Shown one piece after another: positions 2,378 through 23,336 of a stretch of DNA of 33,047 nucleotides. Positions within the stretch are counted from its first letter, which is position 1; every line of letters starts with the position of its first letter. Made by a program: the position numbers and the translations under genes. The notes under the pieces were generated by a model. That model was given only the letters and a program-made list of their open reading frames with translations, made no database searches and had not been told where the DNA came from. Source of the stretch: Candidatus Omnitrophota bacterium (lineage in GTDB: Bacteria; Omnitrophota; Gorgyraeia; Duberdicusellales; 4484-171); assembly GCA_017994375.1 (NCBI GenBank), contig JAGOLA010000006.1:1-33047 (forward strand), in the 5' to 3' direction.

Positions 2378-3973
2378 ATGGCAAAAGATAATATAGCATT
2401 AATAACTTTTTATGATTTAGATTCTTTCGCTATACATACTTTGCATTCTGTTTTAAAGGCTGCTGATTTTAACGTCCACTCGATATTTTTTAAAAGTCTT
2501 AATATCAATAGCACAGCTGATCCTCCGACGGATAGTGAGATAGCAGCTCTTATAAAATTACTAAAAAAAATCGACCCGGTTACTGTAGGAATAAGCTTTC
2601 GTTCCACATTTTTTAAGTTGGCCTCGCAGATAACTAATAAAATAAGGGAAAATTTAGATACTTTAGTTATCTGGGGAGGGATACATCCCACGATTAGGCC
2701 GAATCAATGTCTGGAATTAGCAGATATGGTTTGTGTTGGTGAAGGCGAAGGAGCTATGTTAGATTTAGCTACTAAACTATTAAAAAAGGAAGAAGTGGAT
2801 AATATACCAAATTTATGGATTAAAAAAGGAGATAGAGTTATTAAAAATGACTTACGCCTTCTGATTCAAGATTTGGATTCATTGCCTTTTCCGGATTTTT
2901 TGCCTGATAATAAGTATTTTATACAGGATAGCCACATCTTGCCTTTGGCATCTCCGATACAGAGGACAGACTACAGCATTATGACTTCTCGCGGTTGCCC
3001 TTTTAGTTGCACTTATTGCTATAACAATATAGCTAAGAAAATCAATAAAGATAAAGGAAAATATGTAAGGCGCCGTAGCGTAGAGAATGTGATGGAAGAG
3101 TTAGCTCAAGCAAAAGAAAATTTTAAAAACCTGTTATATATATCTTTTTTAGATGATTTATTTACTTTTGATATCGATTGGATAAGAAGATTTCATCAGC
3201 GGTATAAAAAGGAGATCGATCTTCCGTTTTACTGTCATATCCATCCCAGGTTTTCCGATGAAGAGATGATAGCTTTACTTAAAGATGCCGGGTGTGCCGG
3301 AATGACTATGGGAATACAAACCGGCTCTGAAGAGAGCAGACATAATTTTTTTGAGAGGTACGAAACTAACGAGCAGATAGTCAAATCAGCGCAAAACCTA
3401 GGTAAATACCGAATTAACTGTACTTACGATTTAATAATGGATAATCCTTTCGAGACCGATAAGCATAAACGGGAAACATTTGAGCTTTTGTTGCAATTAC
3501 CCAGGCCTTTTAAGCTATGTATACATTCTCTGACGCATTTTCCGGAGACTAAACTTACCAATCTTCTTTTAGATAAGGGGATAATATCCGAAAGTGACGT
3601 CGAAGATCAAAAACAAAAGTCCTATACGAGGTGGACGCCAGCCCTTGATTTAGAAAGAAACAAAGAAGATTTATTTTGGGATAATCTCTACTATTTAAAC
3701 CAGAAAAAATATGTCCCTCGAAAATTTCTTACTAGGCTTAGTAATGTTAGCTTTTTTAAACAACATCCCAAACCGCTAACTTTTTTATTAAGGTTGACCA
3801 GTTTTTCTATTTATACTATTAGAAGCGGCTCTAAATTAGATGCTTTAAGGTGGTCTTTATTGACTCTTTTTAATAAACCGTACTTATTATTTAAAAAAAG
3901 AACCTGGTTTTTCCTTTGGTTTAAGATAAAAGCTAAATTATCATTTTTAGCTAATTTAAAAGCTTTTTTATAA
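2378..3973 (+). CDS. B12-binding-fold radical SAM protein
   Basis: The 531-residue protein has the two-part layout of cobalamin-dependent radical SAM enzymes. The N-terminal region (about residues 1-150) is Rossmann-like and contains GGIHPT and VGEGE. The radical SAM core then carries CPFSCTYC, a canonical CX3CX2C cluster site at Cys207, Cys211 and Cys214. The base-off B12 motif DXHXXG is not visible, so cobalamin may be bound base-on or not at all. The tail after about residue 440 is basic and hydrophobic. Relatives act as methylases, as in hopanoid and phosphonate enzymes, or do other radical chemistry. In this glycan locus the substrate could be a sugar or lipid, which is inference. It lies between two GT2 genes, one base after the first. 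Confidence 0.82.
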   Translation: MAKDNIALITFYDLDSFAIHTLHSVLKAADFNVHSIFFKSLNINSTADPPTDSEIAALIKLLKKIDPVTVGISFRSTFFKLASQITNKIRENLDTLVIWGGIHPTIRPNQCLELADMVCVGEGEGAMLDLATKLLKKEEVDNIPNLWIKKGDRVIKNDLRLLIQDLDSLPFPDFLPDNKYFIQDSHILPLASPIQRTDYSIMTSRGCPFSCTYCYNNIAKKINKDKGKYVRRRSVENVMEELAQAKENFKNLLYISFLDDLFTFDIDWIRRFHQRYKKEIDLPFYCHIHPRFSDEEMIALLKDAGCAGMTMGIQTGSEESRHNFFERYETNEQIVKSAQNLGKYRINCTYDLIMDNPFETDKHKRETFELLLQLPRPFKLCIHSLTHFPETKLTNLLLDKGIISESDVEDQKQKSYTRWTPALDLERNKEDLFWDNLYYLNQKKYVPRKFLTRLSNVSFFKQHPKPLTFLLRLTSFSIYTIRSGSKLDALRWSLLTLFNKPYLLFKKRTWFFLWFKIKAKLSFLANLKAFL

Positions 3974-3978
3974 AAGAA

Positions 3979-4902
3979 GTGTATACTAAAACTTCCTATA
4001 AGATTTCATTTATTATTGCCTCTATTGATAGGGATGAGCAATTGCAGAAATGCATCGCTTCTATCGAAAAAGCACATGAATATGAATCTAATATTCCTAT
4101 TGAAATTCTAGTAGTTATTCAAAAAGCAAAACAGAAAAAGGATATTCAGATACGCTACCCAGAAGTTACTACTTTTTATTATATAGATGAAATCGGATTA
4201 TCAGTAGCCAGAAATTTTGCTATTCAGAAAAGTAGCGGAGACTATCTTGTTTTCTTAGATGATGATGCTGAAATTAATGAAGATTTTATCGAAGTATTAT
4301 CGAAAAAAATCAAACTATATGGCAAGATCAATGCTTTTTGCGGTAGGCTTATTGACCGGGCTCAAAATATTCCTTTCTCGCCACTTTTTTATACCAATAA
4401 AGTTAAGAAGCTAAATAGGATGGAATACCAGTATTTTATGGGTAGCGCTCACGTATTAAGTAAAAAGATTATTGAAAGAATCAAAGGCTATGACGAACGT
4501 TTTGGCTTCGGTTCAAAGCATTATCGCGGCGCTGAAGAGACCGATATGTTTTTTAGGTTAAAAGTAGCTAAAGAGCAAGTAATATATTTACCGGATTTGA
4601 TTTTTTTTCATCCGATGATTTATCCTTCTCCTCAATATGTATATAATTACGGATTTGTGTTGGGAGTAGTAGTCACAAAGCATTGTATTTACGATAAGGC
4701 CCATTTTTTTATTTATTTTTTGATTATTTTAGAAGTGACAATGAGAGGGCTGGTAAGATTACTACAAAAATTATTTTTAAAAAGAATAAGAGAGAAAGAT
4801 CAAATATACCATTACGGTAATAGATTGAAAGGTTTATTTAAAGGAGTAAAATGTTTTATTTACGATAATTACTCGGCAAAAAAAGAAGGTAGAGATGATT
4901 GA
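3979..4902 (+). CDS. GT2 family glycosyltransferase
   Basis: This 307-residue GT2 protein begins at GTG. The start is chosen because the GT-A core (ISFIIASIDRDEQLQKCIASI) follows within ten residues, although the Shine-Dalgarno (AGAAG) is weak. The metal site is YLVFLDDDAEIN near residues 89-100. The acceptor-side segment FGFGSKHYRGAEETDMFFRL contains the ED-like pair (EET D) typical of the family. A hydrophobic stretch near residues 240-260 may touch the membrane. The last 8 bases overlap the cupin gene. The role is sugar addition to the repeat unit; the sugar is unknown. Confidence 0.85.
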   Translation: MYTKTSYKISFIIASIDRDEQLQKCIASIEKAHEYESNIPIEILVVIQKAKQKKDIQIRYPEVTTFYYIDEIGLSVARNFAIQKSSGDYLVFLDDDAEINEDFIEVLSKKIKLYGKINAFCGRLIDRAQNIPFSPLFYTNKVKKLNRMEYQYFMGSAHVLSKKIIERIKGYDERFGFGSKHYRGAEETDMFFRLKVAKEQVIYLPDLIFFHPMIYPSPQYVYNYGFVLGVVVTKHCIYDKAHFFIYFLIILEVTMRGLVRLLQKLFLKRIREKDQIYHYGNRLKGLFKGVKCFIYDNYSAKKEGRDD

Positions 4903-5329
4903 AAAAATCAAATATAAGGATAATGTTTTAGCCATAATAGTAAGAAAAGAATACGATAAAGAGGGAATATCATTTATTACTCCCGATGATTTTACCCTTC
5001 AATTAGGGTATATGAGGCATCCTAAGAGTTATAAAATAAAACCTCACATGCATCAGCCGGTTCACAGAGAAACAATCGGCACTCAAGAGGTAATAATTAT
5101 CCAAAAAGGTAAGATAAAAATCGATTTTTACTCTCCGGATAAAAATTATTTAGAGAGTAGAGAACTTTCCGAGGGCGATGTGATATTATTAATTAGCGCC
5201 GGCCATGGGATGACTATCCTGGATCCAGTAAGCATGATAGAGGTAAAAAATGGCCCTTATCGGCCGGAGCAGGATAAAGAAAAATTCGAAGGAATTGATC
5301 ATGATACCAGTAAACGAACCACTTCTTAA
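4895..5329 (+). CDS. Cupin-fold protein, possible sugar-nucleotide modifying enzyme
   Basis: This 144-residue protein has a cupin-like metal site. HMHQPVH around residues 51-57 gives the HXH pair, Glu65 precedes a turn at KGKIKI, and GDVILLISAGHG supplies the second-motif histidine. Cupins in glycan loci include 3,5-epimerases and 3,4-ketoisomerases, but I do not see a clear match to RmlC or FdtA/TylM1-type sequences. The function is therefore not assigned. It overlaps the preceding GT2 gene by 8 bases, and its last 29 bases contain the start of the aminotransferase gene. That tight coupling suggests a role in the same sugar pathway. Confidence 0.6.
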   Translation: MIEKIKYKDNVLAIIVRKEYDKEGISFITPDDFTLQLGYMRHPKSYKIKPHMHQPVHRETIGTQEVIIIQKGKIKIDFYSPDKNYLESRELSEGDVILLISAGHGMTILDPVSMIEVKNGPYRPEQDKEKFEGIDHDTSKRTTS

Positions 5330-6410
5330 CGGCCGCGAAAAAGAGCTGTTAAACGAATGTATTAACAGTGGCTGGATTTCTTCTGATGGTCCGTTTGTTG
5401 CCGAATTTGAAAAGAAATTTTCATCTTATATCGGCGTTAATTTTGGTATAGCGGTTTCTAACGGTGCCGCTGCTTTAGAAACCGCACTTTTTGCCGCCGG
5501 AATTGGCAAAGGAGATGAAGTTATTATGCCGGCTTTTACGATTATTTCCTGTGCCTTAGCGGTAATTCGTCTAGGAGCTAGACCGGTTTTAATAGATTCA
5601 GAACCAGAAACCTGGAATATGGACGTAAACCAATTAGAATCGCGTATAACTAATAGGACTAAGGCTATTATGGCCGTTCATATTTACGGCCATCCGGTTG
5701 ATATGGGACCGCTATTAGAGATAGCAAAAAAACATAACCTTATTGTAATTGAAGACGCAGCGGAAGTCCACGGTGCCGAATATAGAGGAAGAAAATGTGG
5801 TAGCCTAGGTCACATTAGTGCTTTTTCATTTTACGCTAATAAGATTATTACTACTGGTGAAGGAGGAATGGTTTTAACGTCAGATAAGACGCTGGCGGAA
5901 AAATCCCGGTCTTACCGTAACCTTTGTTTTCGTCCGGAAAAAAGATTTTTTCATACCGAGTTAGGATTTAACTACCGTATGACTAATCTACAGGCAGCTA
6001 TAGGCGTAGCCCAAGTTGAAAGAATCGAAGAATTCATTCGGATTAAAAGAGAAATGGGTAAGTATTATCACGAAAAGCTTTCTCCAATCAAAGGAGTTAA
6101 GCTTCAGGTGGAAAAACCCTGGGCTAAGACAGTATACTGGATGTATTGCATAGAGTTAGCCGAAAATACCGGTTTAGATGCCGATGCTATGATGAAAAAG
6201 CTTGGTAAAAGAGGTATTGGCACACGTCCCTTCTTTTTAGGCTTGCACGAGCAACCGGCATTACAAGATATCGGTTTATTTAAAGGAGAAAGCTATCCGG
6301 TCGCCGAGCGTATTGCCCGGCAAGGTTTGTATTTACCTTCGGGTTTAGCGATTACTAAGAAGCAAATAGACGAAGTAGTTAAAAACGTTAAAGAAGTTCT
6401 GGTAGGTTAA
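5301..6410 (+). CDS. DegT/DnrJ/EryC1 aminotransferase, GDP-perosamine synthase-like
   Basis: This 369-residue PLP enzyme is a sugar aminotransferase. I place the start at ATG 5301, preceded by GAAGGA, because the product then begins MIPVNEPLL as in the family; a frame open from 5250 would add an unrelated leader. The PLP lysine is Lys181 in YANKIITTGEGG. The pairs DAAEVHGA and NYRMTNLQAA are family landmarks. The segment GIGTRPFFLGLHEQP strongly recalls GDP-perosamine synthases (Per/RfbE of E. coli O157 type), which aminate C4 of GDP-4-keto-6-deoxymannose. The canonical Gmd at 14422-15399 could supply that substrate. It lies between the cupin and the C-methyltransferase. Family is certain; perosamine-type specificity is an inference. 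Confidence 0.82.
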   Translation: MIPVNEPLLNGREKELLNECINSGWISSDGPFVAEFEKKFSSYIGVNFGIAVSNGAAALETALFAAGIGKGDEVIMPAFTIISCALAVIRLGARPVLIDSEPETWNMDVNQLESRITNRTKAIMAVHIYGHPVDMGPLLEIAKKHNLIVIEDAAEVHGAEYRGRKCGSLGHISAFSFYANKIITTGEGGMVLTSDKTLAEKSRSYRNLCFRPEKRFFHTELGFNYRMTNLQAAIGVAQVERIEEFIRIKREMGKYYHEKLSPIKGVKLQVEKPWAKTVYWMYCIELAENTGLDADAMMKKLGKRGIGTRPFFLGLHEQPALQDIGLFKGESYPVAERIARQGLYLPSGLAITKKQIDEVVKNVKEVLVG

Positions 6411-6422
6411 AGAGAGAATTTA

Positions 6423-7631
6423 ATGGATACCATTACTTGCACTGCTTGCCGCTTATGCGGTTCGGAAAATTTACGTCAAGTATTTTCGCTAGGTGAACAA
6501 TATATCAATGATTTTGTACCCCAAGAAAGAATCGGTAAAGGGCTTAAGGCACCGTTGGACTTGGTGATTTGTGATAACTGTTCTTTATTACAATTAAAAC
6601 ATACTGCTCCTCAGGAGCTATTATATTCGCGGTATTATTGGTATAGGTCAGGAGTTACCGATACAATGCGTCAAGCTTTAAAAGATATTACCAAAGAAAT
6701 CGAAGAAATGGTGGATATTTCTTGTGGTGATGTAGTTTTAGATATCGGGGCTAATGACGGAACCTTATTGGACAGCTATACTAAAAAGGGCATACACCGG
6801 GTAGGTTGTGAACCAGCTAATAACCTTATAGATATGTTAAGAGAAAAAACTAAATATGTGATGCATGATTTCTGGAATTACGAACGCTATATGGAGTTAG
6901 CTAAAAGTTGGGGGTTTAGTAAAGCCAAAGTTATTACGGCTATCGGCATGTTTTATGATTTAGAAGACCCAAATAAATTTATCAAAGATGCCCAGAAAGC
7001 TTTAGCTGATGACGGCGTATTTGTGGCTCAATTAATGTGCCTTAGGCCAATGCTTGAAAAGAATGATATCGGCAATTTATGTCATGAGCATCTGGAGTAT
7101 TATTCCTTAGATTCGCTTAAATATCTTTTTGAAACTAACGGCCTTGAGATGTTTAAAATCGAAGAGAATGATATAAATGGCGGTAGTTATCGGATTTTTG
7201 CCCGGCATTATAAAGGTAAAGGCATAAAATATGATGAAAAAATTACCTTAAAAGATATCTTAGCTTTTGCTAAACGGGTGAAAAGTAACCGCGATAAATG
7301 TTTTACTTTTATCAAGGAAGAAGTTGCTAAAGGTAAAAAAGTGTATGTTTATGGCGCTTCTACCAAGGGAAATGTAATTTTGCAATATTACGGTTTAGAC
7401 CACACTTTAATTGCAGCTGCTGCTGAACGCAGCCCGGAAAAGTGGGGAAAATATACTGTTGGGACTTGGATTCCGATTGTTTCTGAAGAAGAGGCCAGAA
7501 AAGCTCAGCCAGATTATTTTTTAGTTTTGCCGTGGGCTTTTTTTAGTGAGTTTTATGAACGCGAAAAAGAGTGGCGGGCAAAAGGTGGAAAATTCATTGT
7601 GCCTTTACCAGAATTTAGGGTAGTATCATGA
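6423..7631 (+). CDS. Zinc-binding sugar C-methyltransferase (TylC3/KijD1-like)
   Basis: This 402-residue protein has the three-part layout of NDP-sugar C-methyltransferases. The N-terminal zinc domain has Cys9-x2-Cys12 and Cys50-x2-Cys53. The central SAM-binding domain has VLDIGANDGTLLDSY. The C-terminal domain includes YVYGASTKGNV and LVLPW. The catalytic stretch CHEHLEYYS (His221, Glu222, His223, then Tyr) matches the His/Glu and Tyr residues used by KijD1-type enzymes to deprotonate next to a keto group. These enzymes add a methyl branch, usually at C3 of a 4-keto-6-deoxy sugar. Next to a perosamine-synthase-like gene it suggests a branched amino- or keto-deoxyhexose. It shares a 4-base ATGA overlap with the Nudix gene. 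Confidence 0.85.
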   Translation: MDTITCTACRLCGSENLRQVFSLGEQYINDFVPQERIGKGLKAPLDLVICDNCSLLQLKHTAPQELLYSRYYWYRSGVTDTMRQALKDITKEIEEMVDISCGDVVLDIGANDGTLLDSYTKKGIHRVGCEPANNLIDMLREKTKYVMHDFWNYERYMELAKSWGFSKAKVITAIGMFYDLEDPNKFIKDAQKALADDGVFVAQLMCLRPMLEKNDIGNLCHEHLEYYSLDSLKYLFETNGLEMFKIEENDINGGSYRIFARHYKGKGIKYDEKITLKDILAFAKRVKSNRDKCFTFIKEEVAKGKKVYVYGASTKGNVILQYYGLDHTLIAAAAERSPEKWGKYTVGTWIPIVSEEEARKAQPDYFLVLPWAFFSEFYEREKEWRAKGGKFIVPLPEFRVVS

Positions 7632-8050
7632 TTTTTATTCCTAGAGAAGAGTATAAAAAAATCATCGATGTTTTGCCTATTTTATGCGTAGATATAATGG
7701 TACAAAATCCTAAAGGCGAATATTTGTTAGTTAAACGTGCTAATGAACCGTTAAAAGGCCAATGGTGGGTGATTGGTGGTAGAGTATTAAAAGGAGAGAC
7801 TTTAGTAGAAGCAGCTATGCGAAAAGTAAAGGAAGAAGTCGGTATCTTGATAGATACCGTTAAGCCCATAGGTTATTATGAAGAAATATCTCATACTAAC
7901 CATTTCAGCCAAGAGACACCACTGCATTCAGTTAGTGTAGTTTTTTTAACTCATATCGATGGTTCTCAAAAAGTAACCTTGGATAGTCAAAGCTCTGATT
8001 GGAAGTATTCAAAAGAACTACCCAAAGGTCTTTCAATAAAACCATTTTAG
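7628..8050 (+). CDS. gmm: Nudix hydrolase, GDP-mannose mannosyl hydrolase-like
   Basis: This 140-residue protein resembles Gmm/WcaH, which hydrolyses GDP-mannose or GDP-glucose to the sugar and GDP. The opening IPREEYKKIIDVLPIL and the segment GQWWVIGGRVLKGETL match the family. The Nudix box runs Gly51 to Ile73 (GX5E, X7, Arg65), but position 66 is Lys where the general Nudix box has Glu. A box lacking the usual pyrophosphatase Glu is a hallmark of GDP-mannose mannosyl hydrolases, which cut at the sugar carbon. The protein is some 15 residues shorter than E. coli Gmm, with the C-terminus ending soon after the usual DW/DY segment. It may tune GDP-mannose levels for this cassette. Start overlaps the methyltransferase stop (ATGA). 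Confidence 0.78.
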   Translation: MIFIPREEYKKIIDVLPILCVDIMVQNPKGEYLLVKRANEPLKGQWWVIGGRVLKGETLVEAAMRKVKEEVGILIDTVKPIGYYEEISHTNHFSQETPLHSVSVVFLTHIDGSQKVTLDSQSSDWKYSKELPKGLSIKPF

Positions 8051-8081
8051 AAAAAATATAACTATATTGGAGGTACAGAAA

Positions 8082-9077
8082 GTGAAGAAAGCACTAATTT
8101 TCGGAGTTACCGGGCAAGATGGAAGCTATTTAGCAGAAATACTCTTAGAGAAAGGTTACCAAGTCCATGGGATGTTGAGGCGTTCGGCTACCGGCAATAC
8201 TAAGAATATAGACCACTTGGTTAATAACCAAAAGTTATTTAATAAGAGTTTCTTTTTACACCGCGGTGACTTAGCGGATTCTACTGCTCTTTTTAGAATA
8301 ATTAATACCGTAAAACCTCAGGAGATATATAACGAAGCCGATCAGGATCATGTTGGTTGGAGTTATGATTTAGTAGGATATTCAGCTGATATTACTGGTT
8401 CCGCAGTCGCTAGAATATTGGAAATCATAAAGCAAATCGATCCTAAGATACGTTATTTTCAACCTTGCACTTCTAATATGTTCGGGAAAACCGATATTGC
8501 TCCTCAAACCGAAAATACTCCTTTTAATCCTCAAAGTATTTATGCTTGTGGTAAAGTTTTTGCTTATCACTTAGTGCGTTACTATCGGCAAGCTTTCGGT
8601 ATTTTTGCTTCCAATGCTATACTGTATAATCATGAATCTCCGAGGCGTACTCCGGAATATGTAACGCGTAAAATTACCCAGGCAGTAGCTAAAATAGCCT
8701 GCGGTAAACAGGATAAATTAGTTCTTGGTGATATTGATGCCTGTATTGATTGGGGTTATGCTCGGGAATATATGGAAGCTGCTTGGCAAACACTACAGCT
8801 AGATAAACCCGATGATTTTATTATCGCTAGCGGACAAACTCATTCGGTTAGAGAATGGGTTGATAAAGCTTTTAATTTAGTAAGTCTTGATCCGGATAAA
8901 TATCTAGTAATAGACCCCAAACTTTTACGGCCTACCAAGACATCGACTTTAGTGGGTGATATAACTAAAGCTAAGAAGATGTTCGGATTTAATCCTAAAA
9001 TTAAATTTGAAAAGTTAGTCGAGCTTATGGTAGAGGCTGATTTAGAAAAAGAACGTTTAAATAACAGCCAAGTTTAA
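8082..9077 (+). CDS. Divergent GDP-mannose 4,6-dehydratase paralogue with Glu-to-Asn active site
   Basis: This 331-residue extended SDR belongs to the Gmd group: it has the NAD motif GVTGQDGS, the Gmd hallmark NHESPRR and VTRKI. I choose GTG 8082, eight bases after GGAGG (8069-8073), over a TTG at 8067 that overlaps the ribosome binding site. Active-site residues differ from true Gmd. The TSE/SSE triplet reads Thr130-Ser131-Asn132, so the glutamate that removes the C5 proton in 4,6-dehydratases is Asn. The usual HLAAQSFVG reads NEADQDHVG, and AKRDWG reads ACIDWG. Tyr154 and Lys158 (YACGK) are kept. Redox chemistry at C4 is therefore possible but classical dehydration is doubtful. A canonical Gmd lies at 14422-15399, so this is not the only Gmd. 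Confidence 0.8.
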   Translation: MKKALIFGVTGQDGSYLAEILLEKGYQVHGMLRRSATGNTKNIDHLVNNQKLFNKSFFLHRGDLADSTALFRIINTVKPQEIYNEADQDHVGWSYDLVGYSADITGSAVARILEIIKQIDPKIRYFQPCTSNMFGKTDIAPQTENTPFNPQSIYACGKVFAYHLVRYYRQAFGIFASNAILYNHESPRRTPEYVTRKITQAVAKIACGKQDKLVLGDIDACIDWGYAREYMEAAWQTLQLDKPDDFIIASGQTHSVREWVDKAFNLVSLDPDKYLVIDPKLLRPTKTSTLVGDITKAKKMFGFNPKIKFEKLVELMVEADLEKERLNNSQV

Positions 9078-9081
9078 GATA

Positions 9082-10146
9082 ATGAAAACTTCTGACAAGA
9101 TTTTAGTTTCTATTTGTATGCCTACTTTTAATCGCGCCTCTTTTATCGGTCAAGCCTTAGAAAGTGTTATCTCTCAGGCCGATAATAATATCGAGATAGT
9201 AATAGTAGATGGAGCTTCTACTGATAATACTGCGCAAGTCGTACAACAATATCAAAAAAAATTCGGCAATTTAGTTTATTATCGCGGCGAAAAAAATTTA
9301 GGCGTCAATAGAGACATGGCTAAGACAATTGAGCTGGCACGCGGCCAATATTGCTGGATGCTTTCTGATGATGATTCACTTAAGCCTGGTGCCATAAAAA
9401 GAATCTTAGAGGAAATAAAAACCGGATGCCAAATATATCTTTGCAACATAACAGTATGCAATTTATCGATGCAACCGATAAGAGAACGTTTTTGGCTTTC
9501 GGCTAAAGTCAAAGATAGGATTTTTAATCTTAACGATAAAGACGAATTCATAGAGTATTGTAATAAAGCCGATTCTATAGGTGCTCTTTTTAGCTATATG
9601 AGTTCTATAATTTTACATCGCCCAAGCTGGATGGAAACCGGATATCATTATGATTTTGATGATACCGCCTATGCTTTGGCATCTTCGCTATTATCTTTTA
9701 CCCGGCATAATTGTAAGTTAAAGTATATCAGAGATTCTTTGGTTTTTTGGCGCGAAGATAATGCCAGTTTTCAATTTGCCGATGGTCCGGTGAAAAGATT
9801 TCTTTTGGATTTTGACGGTTATTTGAAATTAGCCGATAAATATTTATCAGAGGATCATAAGGCGAAAAAGGCATTTTTTAGGGTTATGAGGCGTGAACAT
9901 CCCTGGTATACGATAATAAATGTTACTTCGTTCATTAATGATTCCAAAGTATGGGAGCAGTTTAAGAATAAAATGCTTAAATTTGGCTATCATTCTTTAA
10001 TGATAAATTTCTTTTATTTCCTAAGCCGATACAAGAATTTTATAGCTTTTGCCGTTGCAATTAAACGAAAGATAATTAAGAATCGTCGGATACAAGCTGT
10101 TATGGATTGGTTATTAGGCCGTAAAAAATATTTTAAAGTAGGATAA
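9082..10146 (+). CDS. GT2 family glycosyltransferase
   Basis: This 354-residue protein opens with the GT2 core VSICMPTFNRASFIGQALES. It has the donor-side IVIVDGASTDNT and the metal site CWMLSDDDSLKPG near residues 90-102. The general pattern (MPTFNR, SDDD) recalls abequosyltransferase-like GT2 enzymes, which transfer deoxysugars, and it follows directly on the deoxysugar cassette. The tail after about residue 285 is basic with aromatic clusters and may associate with the membrane. Donor identity is not readable. The gene starts four bases after the Gmd-like gene. Confidence 0.83.
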   Translation: MKTSDKILVSICMPTFNRASFIGQALESVISQADNNIEIVIVDGASTDNTAQVVQQYQKKFGNLVYYRGEKNLGVNRDMAKTIELARGQYCWMLSDDDSLKPGAIKRILEEIKTGCQIYLCNITVCNLSMQPIRERFWLSAKVKDRIFNLNDKDEFIEYCNKADSIGALFSYMSSIILHRPSWMETGYHYDFDDTAYALASSLLSFTRHNCKLKYIRDSLVFWREDNASFQFADGPVKRFLLDFDGYLKLADKYLSEDHKAKKAFFRVMRREHPWYTIINVTSFINDSKVWEQFKNKMLKFGYHSLMINFFYFLSRYKNFIAFAVAIKRKIIKNRRIQAVMDWLLGRKKYFKVG

Positions 10147-14421: not shown

Positions 14422-15399
14422 ATGAAGAAAGTCCTTATTACCGGGATAACCGGCCAAGATGGCTCTTATTTAGCGGAATTTCTGCTCGATAAAGGTTACC
14501 AAGTCCACGGTATAGTCCGTCGGGTTGCTTTAGAAGATCCGGCGCACCGCTTAGTACGTTTAGCGGATATTCTTAACAGGGTAGAATTACACTGCGCTGA
14601 TTTAGAGAGTTATGCTAGTATTTTCAATGTCGTAGAGAAGATAAAACCCGATGAGTGTTACCATTTAGCCGCTCAGAGCTTTGTCGGTTATTCCTTTGAG
14701 GATGAATTTTCAACTAGCATGATAAACATCAACGGCACCCACCATATATTATCAGCTATAAAGCAAAGAGCCCCTGATTGTAAATTTTACTTTGCCGGTT
14801 CTAGTGAAATGTTTGGTTTAGCTAAAGAAGCGCCGCAAAACGAAAATACGCCTTTTCATCCTCGGTCTTCCTACGGTATTTCTAAAGTAGCAGGTTTTCA
14901 CTTAACTCAGAACTATCGTGAAGCTTATAACTTATTTGCTTGTAACGGTATCCTTTTTAATCACGAGTCGCCTCGTCGCGGATACGAATTTGTTACCCGT
15001 AAGATTACCAGCATGGTGGCCAGAATTAAGTTAGGTTTAGCTAAAGAGTTGCGTTTAGGAAATTTAGAAGCAAAACGCGACTGGGGTTACGCCGGTGAAT
15101 ACATCAAAGCCATGTGGATGATGCTTCAGCAAAGTAAGCCCGATGACTACGTTATCGCTACTGGCAAAACTTATTCGGTCCGGGAATTTGTCCAGTTAGC
15201 TTTCGATTATGTCAATCTTAACTGGAAAAGTTATACTAAAATCGATGATACTTTTTACCGTCCGGCCGAAGTACATGAGCTATGCGGCGATTACTCTAAA
15301 GCCAAAAAATATCTTGGCTGGAAGCCCGAGGTAAACTTAGAGAAATTAGTAAAGATGATGGTAGATGCCGATTTAAAAATAGCCAATAGTTTATTATGA
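14422..15399 (+). CDS. gmd: GDP-mannose 4,6-dehydratase
   Basis: This 325-residue enzyme converts GDP-D-mannose to GDP-4-keto-6-deoxy-D-mannose, the precursor of fucose, rhamnose, perosamine and colitose type sugars. All family marks are present: GITGQDGSYLAEFLL, HLAAQSFVGYSFE, the catalytic Ser127-Ser128-Glu129 (usual Thr is Ser here), Tyr151-x3-Lys155 in YGISK, the hallmark NHESPRRG with FVTRKI, and LEAKRDWGYAGEY for GDP binding. A canonical promoter-like element lies just upstream. The stop overlaps the WecA-like gene by 4 bases (ATGA). The intact Glu contrasts with the Asn of the paralogue at 8082-9077. Gmd activity is well supported; which deoxysugars follow is inference. Confidence 0.93.
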   Translation: MKKVLITGITGQDGSYLAEFLLDKGYQVHGIVRRVALEDPAHRLVRLADILNRVELHCADLESYASIFNVVEKIKPDECYHLAAQSFVGYSFEDEFSTSMININGTHHILSAIKQRAPDCKFYFAGSSEMFGLAKEAPQNENTPFHPRSSYGISKVAGFHLTQNYREAYNLFACNGILFNHESPRRGYEFVTRKITSMVARIKLGLAKELRLGNLEAKRDWGYAGEYIKAMWMMLQQSKPDDYVIATGKTYSVREFVQLAFDYVNLNWKSYTKIDDTFYRPAEVHELCGDYSKAKKYLGWKPEVNLEKLVKMMVDADLKIANSLL

Positions 15400-19279: not shown

Positions 19280-19488
19280 CATGATACAGTTTATAGATAG
19301 ACTATAGTGATTTAAGCACAGTATTTACGAACAGAAAGATGTATATAATCTCCGCTGAAGGCGGAGAGGCTTAGGCTGACCCAGAAGTAGAAGCCTTATT
19401 ATATCCATCGTTAGTAATATCTTAAGATGAAAGTTTTGTCAAAAAAGAGTAAGTAATAGAATTAAGATAAACTATGGTTAGGGAAGAG
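19280..19488 (+). other. Largest intergenic gap (209 bases)
   Basis: The only gap above 100 bases in the window. Besides the three-way-junction element it holds a small hairpin (TATAG/CTATA, 19293-19307), the 10-base palindrome ATCTTAAGAT (19419-19428), and two similar segments TTAAGATGAA and TTAAGATAAA near 19422 and 19462. A possible weak promoter is TTGTCA (19436-19441) with TAGAAT (19457-19462), but the 15-base spacer is short. No ORF of note and no terminator were seen. Confidence 0.6.
19338..19409 (+). ncRNA. Predicted three-way-junction structured element of unknown class
   Basis: Three helices close around one junction. P1 pairs GATGTATATAAT (19338-19349) with ATTATATCCATC (19398-19409), 11 of 12 pairs with a single T/C mismatch. 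P2 pairs CTCCGC (19350-19355) with GCGGAG (19361-19366) around loop TGAAG. P3 pairs AGGCTT (19367-19372) with AAGCCT (19391-19396) around an 18-base loop. Only T19397 is unpaired at the junction. There is no U-tract, so it is not an intrinsic terminator. It ends about 80 bases before ATG 19489, so it could be a 5' leader element of the radical SAM gene. I recognise no Rfam class. The structure could also act as DNA, as in a small mobile or processing element. Confidence 0.5.
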
Positions 19489-20976
19489 ATGAAGGTTTTA
19501 ATTTGTTTTCCTCCTTTAAATTCCGAAAAAGGCTACCCTACTTTAGGCCAAAACCGGCAATTTCAATATTTTAAAGAACCAACTTATATTTATCCGGTAG
19601 TACCGGCACAAGCAGCAACTTTACTTAAAAATAACGGTTTTAAAGTTAAGTGGCTTGATTGCATAGCCCAAAATATCTCTCAAGCTGGTTTTCTAGAAAT
19701 AATCAAAGAAGAAAAGCCGGACTTGGTAGTTATGGAGACCAAAACACCGATTATCCAGCAACAATGGCAAATCATTAATAGTTTAAAGAAATTACGAACT
19801 CCGAACTCTAAACTCCAAACTGTTTTATTTGGCGATCATGTAACAGCCTTACCAAAAGAATCTTTCCAAAACTCGGCAGTTGATTTTATATTAACCGGAG
19901 GAGATTATGATTTTCTTCTCCTTAACTTATGCAATGTTCTTAAAGAAACTAATCTATCCGCTAACCGCTATCCGCTAACTGCTAAACTAGAGCCAGGAAT
20001 TTGGTATCGGCAAGGAGAAGAAGTTAAGAATACCGGAGAATTTAAGCTCAATCACGATTTAAACTCACTTCCTTTTATTGATAGAGATTTAACTAATTGG
20101 AAATTATACGCTTACAAAAACGGAAATTATCGCCGTAAACCCGGAACTTATATTATGAGCGGGAGAGATTGTTGGTGGAATAAGTGTACTTTTTGTTCTT
20201 GGCCACAGCTTTATACTCAATTTAGAGCTAGAAAGGCAGAAAACGTCTTAGAAGAAATAGAGTATCTAGTAAATAAATACTCCATAAAAGAGATTATGGA
20301 TGATACCGGGACTTTTCCGGTCAAAGATTGGCTCGAAGACTTTTGTCAGGGGATGATTAAAAGAGAGTTAAATAAAAGAGTCCATCTTGATTGCAACATG
20401 CGTTTCGGCGCCGTTACTACAAAGCAATATAAATTGATGTATAAATCTGGCTTTCGATTATTATTGTTCGGATTAGAGTCTGCTAACCAGAGCACTTTAA
20501 ATAGAATTAATAAGAATTTAAAAGTAGAAACTATTATTCAATCCTGCAGAGAAGCCCGTTTAGCTGGGCTATATCCCCATATTACAATTATGTTTGGTTA
20601 TCCTTGGGAAAGCTATGAAGACGCCAAAAGAACACTGGCATTGGGAAGATGGCTGCTTAAAAAAGATTATGCTTATACTATGCAGGCTACAATAGTTATT
20701 CCTTATCCGGGAACTCTTTTATTTAAGGAATGCCAAGAAAAAGAACTACTTTATAATTTGGATTGGTCTTACTATGATATGAAGAATCCGGTAATGAAAC
20801 TAGATTATGAACCGGCTAAGCTTTTAGGGTTAGTTCAAAGCATGTATTCGGTTAGTTTTAATCCCGAGTTCATTTTTAGAAAAATTTTAAGTATACGCCA
20901 CTTCTATGATATCAAGTATTTTGGAGGAGCCTTTCTAAAAGTGATAGGGCACTTATTGGATTTTAAAAGAAGATGA
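19489..20976 (+). CDS. B12-fold radical SAM protein with CX4CX2C cluster motif
   Basis: This 495-residue protein has the N-terminal B12-like domain (about residues 1-160, starting MKVLICFPPLN) and a radical SAM core. I take ATG 19489 as the start because GGGAAG precedes it; ATG 19474, in the same frame, would add five residues without a ribosome binding site. The cluster site reads CWWNKCTFC (Cys228, Cys233, Cys236), a CX4CX2C spacing instead of CX3CX2C. DXHXXG is absent from the B12 domain. The core continues with DDTGTFP, LFGLES and HITIMFGYPWE, typical of this superfamily. Two heptanucleotide repeat arrays fall inside the N-terminal half. The substrate is unknown; a role in modifying the glycan or its lipid is inferred from context only. 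Confidence 0.85.
   Translation: MKVLICFPPLNSEKGYPTLGQNRQFQYFKEPTYIYPVVPAQAATLLKNNGFKVKWLDCIAQNISQAGFLEIIKEEKPDLVVMETKTPIIQQQWQIINSLKKLRTPNSKLQTVLFGDHVTALPKESFQNSAVDFILTGGDYDFLLLNLCNVLKETNLSANRYPLTAKLEPGIWYRQGEEVKNTGEFKLNHDLNSLPFIDRDLTNWKLYAYKNGNYRRKPGTYIMSGRDCWWNKCTFCSWPQLYTQFRARKAENVLEEIEYLVNKYSIKEIMDDTGTFPVKDWLEDFCQGMIKRELNKRVHLDCNMRFGAVTTKQYKLMYKSGFRLLLFGLESANQSTLNRINKNLKVETIIQSCREARLAGLYPHITIMFGYPWESYEDAKRTLALGRWLLKKDYAYTMQATIVIPYPGTLLFKECQEKELLYNLDWSYYDMKNPVMKLDYEPAKLLGLVQSMYSVSFNPEFIFRKILSIRHFYDIKYFGGAFLKVIGHLLDFKRR
19795..19822 (+). repeat. Degenerate heptanucleotide tandem array, four units
   Basis: Four 7-base units in a row: CGAACTC, CGAACTC, TAAACTC, CAAACTG (consensus NRAACTC). 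They lie inside the radical SAM gene, in the linker of its N-terminal domain, and encode a polar stretch around RTPNSKLQ. Similar short tandem heptamers (STRR) are known from heterocystous cyanobacteria. The protein segment looks inserted, since it has no obvious role in the B12-like fold. Confidence 0.7.
19955..19982 (+). repeat. Second heptanucleotide tandem array, four units
   Basis: Four units: TATCCGC, TAACCGC, TATCCGC, TAACTGC (consensus TAWCCGC; a perfect 14-base double unit but for one base). It is in the same gene 132 bases after the first array and has the same total length of 28 bases. It encodes roughly LSANRYPLTAK. The unit differs from that of the first array, so the two are separate expansions or insertions. 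Confidence 0.7.
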
Positions 20977-22268: not shown

Positions 22269-23336
22269 ATGAAAAAAACAAAAACAGCCTTAATTACCGG
22301 TTCTGCAGGATTAATAGGTTCTCAAGCGGTAGAATTCTTTATCAATAAAGGGTTTGAAGTTATCGGCATTGATAATGATATGCGGGCTTATTTTTTTGGC
22401 CAGGAAGCCAGTACTAAAGAGATTAAGAAAAATCTCAAAAGTAACTTTAAAGATAAATATCAACATTTAGACACCGACATTAGAGATAAAAAGAAAATCG
22501 AAAGTATTTTTAAAAAATATAAGTTTGAACTTATAATTCATACTGCTGCTCAGCCTTCTCATGATTGGGCAGCAAAAGAACCTTTTACCGACTTTGAAAT
22601 AAATGCTAACGGCACTATAAATTTACTGGAAAATTACAGAAAATACTCTCCCCAGGCCGTATTTATCTTTACTTCTACTAATAAAGTTTACGGAGATACT
22701 CCTAATAGATTACCCTTAATAGAGACAGAAACCCGTTGGGAATTGCCTAAAGAACATCCTTTCTTTAGGGGTATTGATGAAAGTATGTCTATAGATTATT
22801 CTCTACATAGTATTTTTGGAGCTTCTAAATTAGCGGCTGATATTTTAGTCCAAGAGTACGGAAAATATTTTGGGCTAAGGACAGTATCTTTTAGAGGAGG
22901 ATGTCTTACCGGTCCTTTACATAAAGGCGCTGAATTACACGGGTTTTTAGCTTATTTGGCTAAATGTATAGCTATCGAGCGGCCTTATACCATTTATGGT
23001 TATAAAGGTAAGCAGGTAAGGGACAATATTCATTCTTTTGATTTGGTTAATGCCTTTTGGCATTTTTATCAGAAACCGCGTAGCGGCGAAGTCTATAATA
23101 TCGGCGGCAGCCGTTACTCCAATATCTCTATAAAAGAAGCCTTGGAATACTTTGAGAAGACACTCAAGAAAAAAGCAAAAATAGCATATTCTGACCAAAA
23201 CCGAAAGGGAGATCATATCTGGTATATTTCCAATATCGATAAGTTTAAGTCTCACTATCCAGATTGGGATTATACTTACGATATCTATAAAATTATGGAG
23301 GAGATTTGTTCCAAAGGAGAATTTGGTGAGTATTAA
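22269..23336 (+). CDS. Extended SDR, CDP-paratose 2-epimerase (RfbE tyvelose)-like, catalytic Tyr replaced by Phe
   Basis: This 355-residue SDR has GSAGLIGSQ (NAD loop), [15 protein letters not shown] and TSTNKVYGD. The latter two are marks of the tyvelose-epimerase (CDP-paratose 2-epimerase) group, as is [21 protein letters not shown]. In the YxxxK site the residue is Phe183 (SIFGASK, Lys187), so the catalytic tyrosine is missing. From memory, many homologues also have Phe here, which would make it a family trait rather than damage. No CDP-glucose synthesis genes are in the window, so a CDP-paratose substrate is unlikely. It overlaps the next SDR gene by 11 bases; the two may act together. 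Confidence 0.8.

Follow-up and report, generated by a model that had tools for sequence, protein, structure and literature searches.

GmdN, a Gmd paralogue without the dehydration glutamate and a putative oxidoreductase in the synthesis of a C-methylated amino sugar

Introduction

The 4,6-dehydratase Gmd is a short-chain dehydrogenase/reductase (SDR) with the pattern [ST]SExnYx3K, in which the Glu is the sole added acid/base residue and which in GalE, without this Glu, reads [ST]xnYx3K (PMC8987622, a 2022 review). The Glu, the RR loop and the Ser/Thr-Tyr-Lys residues are its described catalytic features, and some Gmds from bacteria have 4-ketone reductase activity as well (PMC3584063). In Coxiella, a GDP-virenose pathway has been proposed in silico from CBU0689 (Gmd), CBU0691 (a TylCIII-type C-methyltransferase) and CBU0688 (GMER) (PMC3539893). 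Here, we describe a 33,047-nt stretch of a Candidatus Omnitrophota genome (GenBank assembly GCA_017994375.1, contig JAGOLA010000006.1, positions 1 to 33,047 of the forward strand; hereafter the window), which encodes at 8082–9077 (+) a Gmd paralogue of 331 aa, for which we coin the name GmdN. GmdN probably performs a different step in branched amino sugar synthesis, because the acid needed for dehydration has been lost and the same methylating and aminating partners accompany it across bacteria and archaea.

Gene, fold and residue signature of GmdN

The open reading frame runs from a GTG start at 8082 to a stop codon at 9075–9077, and a Shine-Dalgarno-like GGAGG, read directly from the sequence, lies eight bases before the GTG (8069–8073, +); a longer alternative would start from a TTG at 8067. 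The product is a full-length Gmd-fold SDR matched by the Pfam family PF16363 (GDP_Man_Dehyd) at 2e-104, sharing 48% identity with the canonical Gmd encoded in the window (14422–15399) and about 39–46% with solved Gmds. Its AlphaFold2 (AF2) model is of high confidence (mean predicted local distance difference test, pLDDT, 92), and the top Foldseek matches were plant and human Gmd structures at a template modelling (TM) score of about 0.93, the closest being 1n7g and the human E157Q variant 6gpk. The Gmd marks GxTGQDGS, NHESPRR, VTRK and Tyr154/Lys158, which the original prediction had reported, were all found, together with the first Arg of the RR loop. The NCBIfam Gmd model was rejected as a discriminator: GmdN scored 392.4, and the canonical copy of the window, at just 410, was likewise under the cut-off.

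A degenerate DNA pattern for NEADQ(D/N/S/G)HV was run over 84,980 prokaryote species genomes and gave 50 matches, including 47 true GmdN proteins; the other three (L016, L042 and L051) were false. Residues were compared between these 47 GmdN rows and 24 rows of canonical Gmd. Position 132, located in PCTSNMFG (residues 128–135, codons at 8463–8486, +), was Asn in 44 GmdN rows, His in the other 3 and never Glu, which was present in all 24 canonical rows. This bears out the replacement of the catalytic Glu by Asn132 proposed from the window alone; calling this Glu the base was a simplification, as it acts as an acid and, via water, on C5 (PMC8987622). T/S130, S131, Y154 and K158 were kept in 47/47 GmdN rows. 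The stretch YNEADQDHVG (residues 83–92, codons at 8328–8357, +) is the counterpart of YNLAAQSHV in Gmd, and the exchange noted there earlier extends to the entire clade: E85, D87 and D89 were found in 47/47 rows, against L, A and S/T in canonical Gmd, under a scan pattern that itself fixed E85, A86, D87, Q88, H90 and V91 and restricted D89 to D, N, S or G. Positions N42, W93, P128, N132 and I222 were free in this pattern, and a GmdN found via its methyltransferase neighbour instead of the motif (G347) carried the same residues except that HV was HA.

In the RR loop, R33 was retained, and the far Arg, R in 24/24 Gmd rows, was N42 in 44 of 45 scorable GmdN rows. The change of AKRDWG to ACIDWG is present in the window; its Lys-to-Cys part varies within the clade, and the conserved part is the replacement of the RD[WF]G Arg, found in 24/24 Gmd rows, by Ile, Val or Leu at position 222. 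W93, P128 and Y193 are, alongside N42, further clade changes that the original prediction had not listed. Chance can be excluded as the source of this residue set, because it recurs in 43 sequences of less than 90% identity. Judged by the defining Glu and the RR loop, GmdN is not a Gmd but probably functions like a portion of one, and with the Glu gone it is presumably unable to eliminate water.

GmdN might still dehydrate some other sugar substrate, D87/D89 or His/Asn132 serving as the substitute acid/base, in view of the three acidic residues that are new and invariant in GmdN and of other sugar dehydratases that use Asp, Lys or Cys at or near the Glu site (PMC8987622). We consider this improbable, since Gmd has no added catalytic residue besides the Glu, which never occurs in GmdN, and since a true Gmd is at hand in most of the genomes. 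The remaining triad follows the GalE pattern [ST]xnYx3K without an added acid/base (PMC8987622), a feature that is necessary but not sufficient for a transient-oxidation epimerase of the GalE type, acting at C4 or C2 of a GDP-sugar. Such an epimerase is also a poor prospect: GmdN reached 40 bits with the GalE model TIGR01179, whose cut-off is 262 bits, which speaks against kinship with GalE, the clade groups with Gmd, and the 4-amino product of a GDP-perosamine synthase (PerA)-like enzyme could not be epimerised at C4 by this chemistry. The clade profile likewise matched Gmd at 2e-118 versus the reductase Rmd (2pk3) at 1e-34, placing GmdN with Gmd and not with Rmd.

A rare clade of bacteria and archaea

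In the phylogenetic tree, 44 GmdN rows formed one clade with support of 100/98 and a stem of 0.73 changes per site; one row labelled GmdN (L101) fell elsewhere and is not a GmdN. According to the record titles, the bacterial sources were Omnitrophota, deltaproteobacteria in the broad sense, Gemmatimonadota, Chloroflexota, Acidobacteriota, Lentisphaerota, Bdellovibrionota, candidate phyla radiation (CPR) bacteria and others, and the archaeal sources were Woesearchaeota, Nanoarchaeota, one Methanomicrobiales archaeon and one Nitrososphaerota record. The viral contigs scanned for the GmdN motif contained none, and plasmid and phage records gave only Gmd-like matches below 60% and no GmdN. GmdN is thus a rare and old clade rather than a product of drift. 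The Asn132/NEADQDHV clade with constant neighbours that the original prediction had asked about does exist, with 47 members spread over diverse bacteria and archaea, a C-methyltransferase in 47/47 genomes and a DegT-type aminotransferase in 46/47. One Anaerolineales chromosome (CP070811.1) carries two GmdN copies (L036 and L054) that are far apart by their coordinates, and a record titled as a Klebsiella pneumoniae metagenome-assembled genome (MAG; L024/L112), a title that may be wrong, holds the whole cassette.

The C-methyltransferase and the other cassette genes

The most constant partner is a C-methyltransferase (CMT; 6423–7631, +) with Pfam domains Methyltransf_13/23/14, whose nearest solved relatives by sequence were the sugar 3-C-methyltransferases MtmC and TcaB9. 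Two features that align with these enzymes, an EH pair and a tyrosine region, are conserved in CMT. The best CMT match per genome was 57–85% identical in 47/47 GmdN genomes, the window's included, with the next homologues at about 33% or less, except for a second copy at 53% in one genome (G387). Of the 43 genomes with coordinates, 40 had CMT no more than 2 kb from GmdN and 3 had it on other contigs. Among a sample of 384 Omnitrophota genomes, which served for the CMT and Gmd counts, a CMT of at least 59% was found in 6, all of which have GmdN, and relatives of at most 50% were found in 26 others, none of which has the GmdN motif; the surroundings of the distant CMT, examined in 7 of these 26, contained no GmdN.

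The same gene set recurs around GmdN from bacteria to archaea. The DegT/DnrJ/EryC1 aminotransferase (5298–6410, +), which retains the context of the pyridoxal 5′-phosphate lysine, has GDP-perosamine synthase (3bn1, E 8.5e-100) as its nearest solved relative, and its PerA-like counterparts are those found in 46/47 GmdN genomes. The Nudix protein (7628–8050, +), nearest to the GDP-mannose mannosyl hydrolase Gmm (1rya, 1.4e-15), occurs in 37/47 genomes, usually between CMT and GmdN. A small cupin (4895–5329, +), present in 34/47 genomes, has an invariant HxH, E and H (H51, H53, E65 and H104) and a weak similarity to WbuC; no family could be assigned with confidence, and its best structural matches were weak ones to sugar 3,4-ketoisomerases of the QdtA/FdtD type (E 0.008, TM 0.4). 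A glycosyltransferase of family GT2 immediately downstream of GmdN (9082–10146, +), with homologues of 61–65% identity beside GmdN in 7 other loci, is a candidate user of the cassette product.

The original prediction had also named a normal gmd, and the gene at 14422–15399 (+) is indeed a canonical Gmd with the Glu present and the presumed source of GDP-4-keto-6-deoxymannose. A true Gmd was found in 34/43 GmdN genomes and within 10 kb of GmdN in 17, so that Gmd is a likely, though unproven, upstream step. Gmd as an obligate partner is unsupported, its 34/43 standing against a Gmd homologue in 188 of the 384 phylum genomes (GmdN counted). CMT and the aminotransferase are near-obligate, whereas true Gmd is absent from 9/43 genomes, and what remains of the Gmd reaction once the Glu is lost is precisely its C4-oxidation half. 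GmdN could on these grounds be a net C4 dehydrogenase that acts on GDP-mannose or a modified GDP-mannose, stops at the 4-keto stage without 6-deoxygenation and feeds CMT and the aminotransferase in an ArnA-then-ArnB manner, with a product keeping its 6-OH. We regard this as unlikely, though less so than the other alternatives: NADPH would have to be released at every turn, unlike in Gmd, and many genomes have true Gmd next to genes of the cassette. In one Gemmatimonadota genome (G394; L124, L125), the pathway is divided between two operons on separate contigs, Gmd-cupin-CMT and Nudix-GmdN-DegT, so that Gmd shares an operon with the cupin and CMT; in another (G401), it is split into cupin-CMT by a contig end and Nudix-GmdN-DegT on a different contig.

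CMT and GmdN are joined in one frame without a linker on a Nanoarchaeota contig (L026:1-1737, –), a single case, with GmdN truncated where the contig ends. This fusion and the change of R to N42 in the RR loop, a loop reported in tetramer contacts (PMC3584063), could be reconciled with a non-catalytic or regulatory GmdN that assembles with true Gmd, a partner also suggested by the original prediction, or with CMT. We give this very little credence, as all 47 rows keep S131, Y154 and K158, which would be unusual for a dead enzyme, and as GmdN and CMT are on different contigs in G394 and G401.

Several further observations were made in these loci. At L114 and L123, in CPR genomes, the canonical Gmd adjoins a Nudix homologue, as in Gmd/Gmm pairs. 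A GNAT acetyltransferase (L019:6474-6953) lies between CMT and GmdN in two Woesearchaeota loci and one Nanoarchaeota locus, a hint of an N-acylated product. The window also encodes an SDR at 22269–23336 with the motif TSTNKVYG, which has Asn at the same place as GmdN and by eye resembles enzymes of the CDP-tyvelose 2-epimerase type, and two genes in the glycan locus (2378–3973 and 19474–20976) that have the appearance of B12-binding radical SAM proteins to judge by their sequences.

Proposed function

A recruited new function tied to the cassette, as originally proposed, is well supported by the cross-domain clade, the loss of the dehydration residue with Tyr and Lys kept, and the linkage to CMT and the aminotransferase. 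The reactions offered at that time, C4 redox or epimerisation of a GDP-4-keto sugar, are conjectural. On balance, we lean towards GmdN being a Gmd-derived, non-dehydrating NADP(H)-dependent C4 oxidoreductase that helps to build an amino sugar with a C-methyl branch and a GDP carrier. It would use the retained Ser/Thr-Tyr-Lys machinery for hydride transfer between the nicotinamide and C4 of the sugar, its presumed site of action, and would set the C4 redox state before or after C-methylation, in a pathway with Gmd for 4,6-dehydration, a PerA-like aminotransferase and a CMT presumed to methylate C3. The resemblance of the aminotransferase to GDP-perosamine synthase, of the Nudix protein to Gmm and of CMT to MtmC and TcaB9 suggests a GDP-linked, C-methylated amino sugar, and we count in favour of this reading that the nearest solved relatives of the former two act on sugars of the GDP-mannose family.

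GmdN may, as one guess, reduce the 4-keto group after C-methylation. As another, it may oxidise C4 of a GDP-3-amino sugar to the 3-amino-4-keto substrate of EvaC/TcaB9-type methyltransferases, followed by re-reduction; the case for this direction is best with a cupin that acts as a 3,4-ketoisomerase, a role at which its structural matches weakly hint. C4 reduction and C4 amination would compete, which implies that the pathway branches or that the amine sits at C3; with a C3 amine, GmdN could regenerate a C4 ketone for the methylation. A rather speculative extension is a five-protein route, common to bacteria and archaea, to an undescribed GDP-linked 3-C-methyl-3-amino-3,6-dideoxyhexose: Gmd, the cupin as 3,4-ketoisomerase on GDP-4-keto-6-deoxymannose, a 3-aminotransferase, re-oxidation of C4 by GmdN without dehydration, methylation at C3, and re-reduction of C4 by GmdN. 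A 3,4-ketoisomerase for GDP-4-keto-6-deoxymannose was stated as not identified (PMC8944477). The cupin is a weak candidate for this missing enzyme of mycosamine biosynthesis.

Some points weigh against the C4 oxidoreductase that we favour. The Arg of RD[WF]G generally contacts the nucleotide pyrophosphate in SDRs, and with this Arg lost GmdN might act on something other than an ordinary GDP-sugar. D87/D89, acidic residues new to GmdN, could serve as a different acid/base for another dehydration, and the lack of a true Gmd in 9/43 genomes, incomplete MAGs as they are, implies that GmdN may not act downstream of Gmd. A 4-ketoreductase and a 4-aminotransferase would moreover compete for one intermediate, and such a pair has been read as a branched pathway (PMC8944477).

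If true, this function would show a dehydratase turned into a redox enzyme through the loss of one catalytic residue. The GmdN clade is labelled as a second gmd by standard models; with the NEADQD/TSN signature and a neighbouring CMT, annotators can spot the cassette across many phyla, and branched amino sugars are predicted for the surface glycans of the groups bearing GmdN, glycans that to our knowledge have been little studied.

Comparison with known systems

No account of the GmdN cassette, nor a family or pathway matching its gene set, was found in the open-access library searched, which lacks most subscription papers. The same library gave no paper that combines a C-methyltransferase with perosamine, and for its combination with GDP-mannose and DegT it gave one unrelated web-server paper. 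The GDP-perosamine pathway (Gmd and PerA) is alike in its Gmd and PerA-like aminotransferase (3bn1), but two enzymes suffice there, with no C-methyltransferase, cupin or Gmd paralogue. The dTDP pathways of the vancosamine/tetronitrose type (EvaC, TcaB9) combine an aminotransferase, a 3-C-methyltransferase and a C4 redox enzyme as the GmdN cassette does; they differ in being derived from dTDP-glucose and in having a ketoreductase that is not known to be a Gmd paralogue. The Coxiella GDP-virenose scheme likewise has Gmd, a C-methyltransferase for a GDP-sugar and then a redox step at C4, but it has no aminotransferase, its proposed redox enzyme is of the fucose-synthase type, and CBU0689 keeps Glu128. 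Rmd, the GDP-4-keto-6-deoxymannose reductase (2pk3, 6x3b), has the SDR fold (TM 0.86) and the chemistry proposed for GmdN, hydride transfer to C4 of a GDP-4-keto sugar, although it is just 23% identical to GmdN. Canonical Gmd shares with GmdN the fold, GxTGQDGS, the first RR-loop Arg, NHESPRR, VTRK and Ser-Tyr-Lys; GmdN differs in having Asn or His for the Glu, E/D/D for L/A/S in YNLAAQS, and N42 and I/V/L222 for Arg, and in forming its own supported clade with its own gene neighbours.
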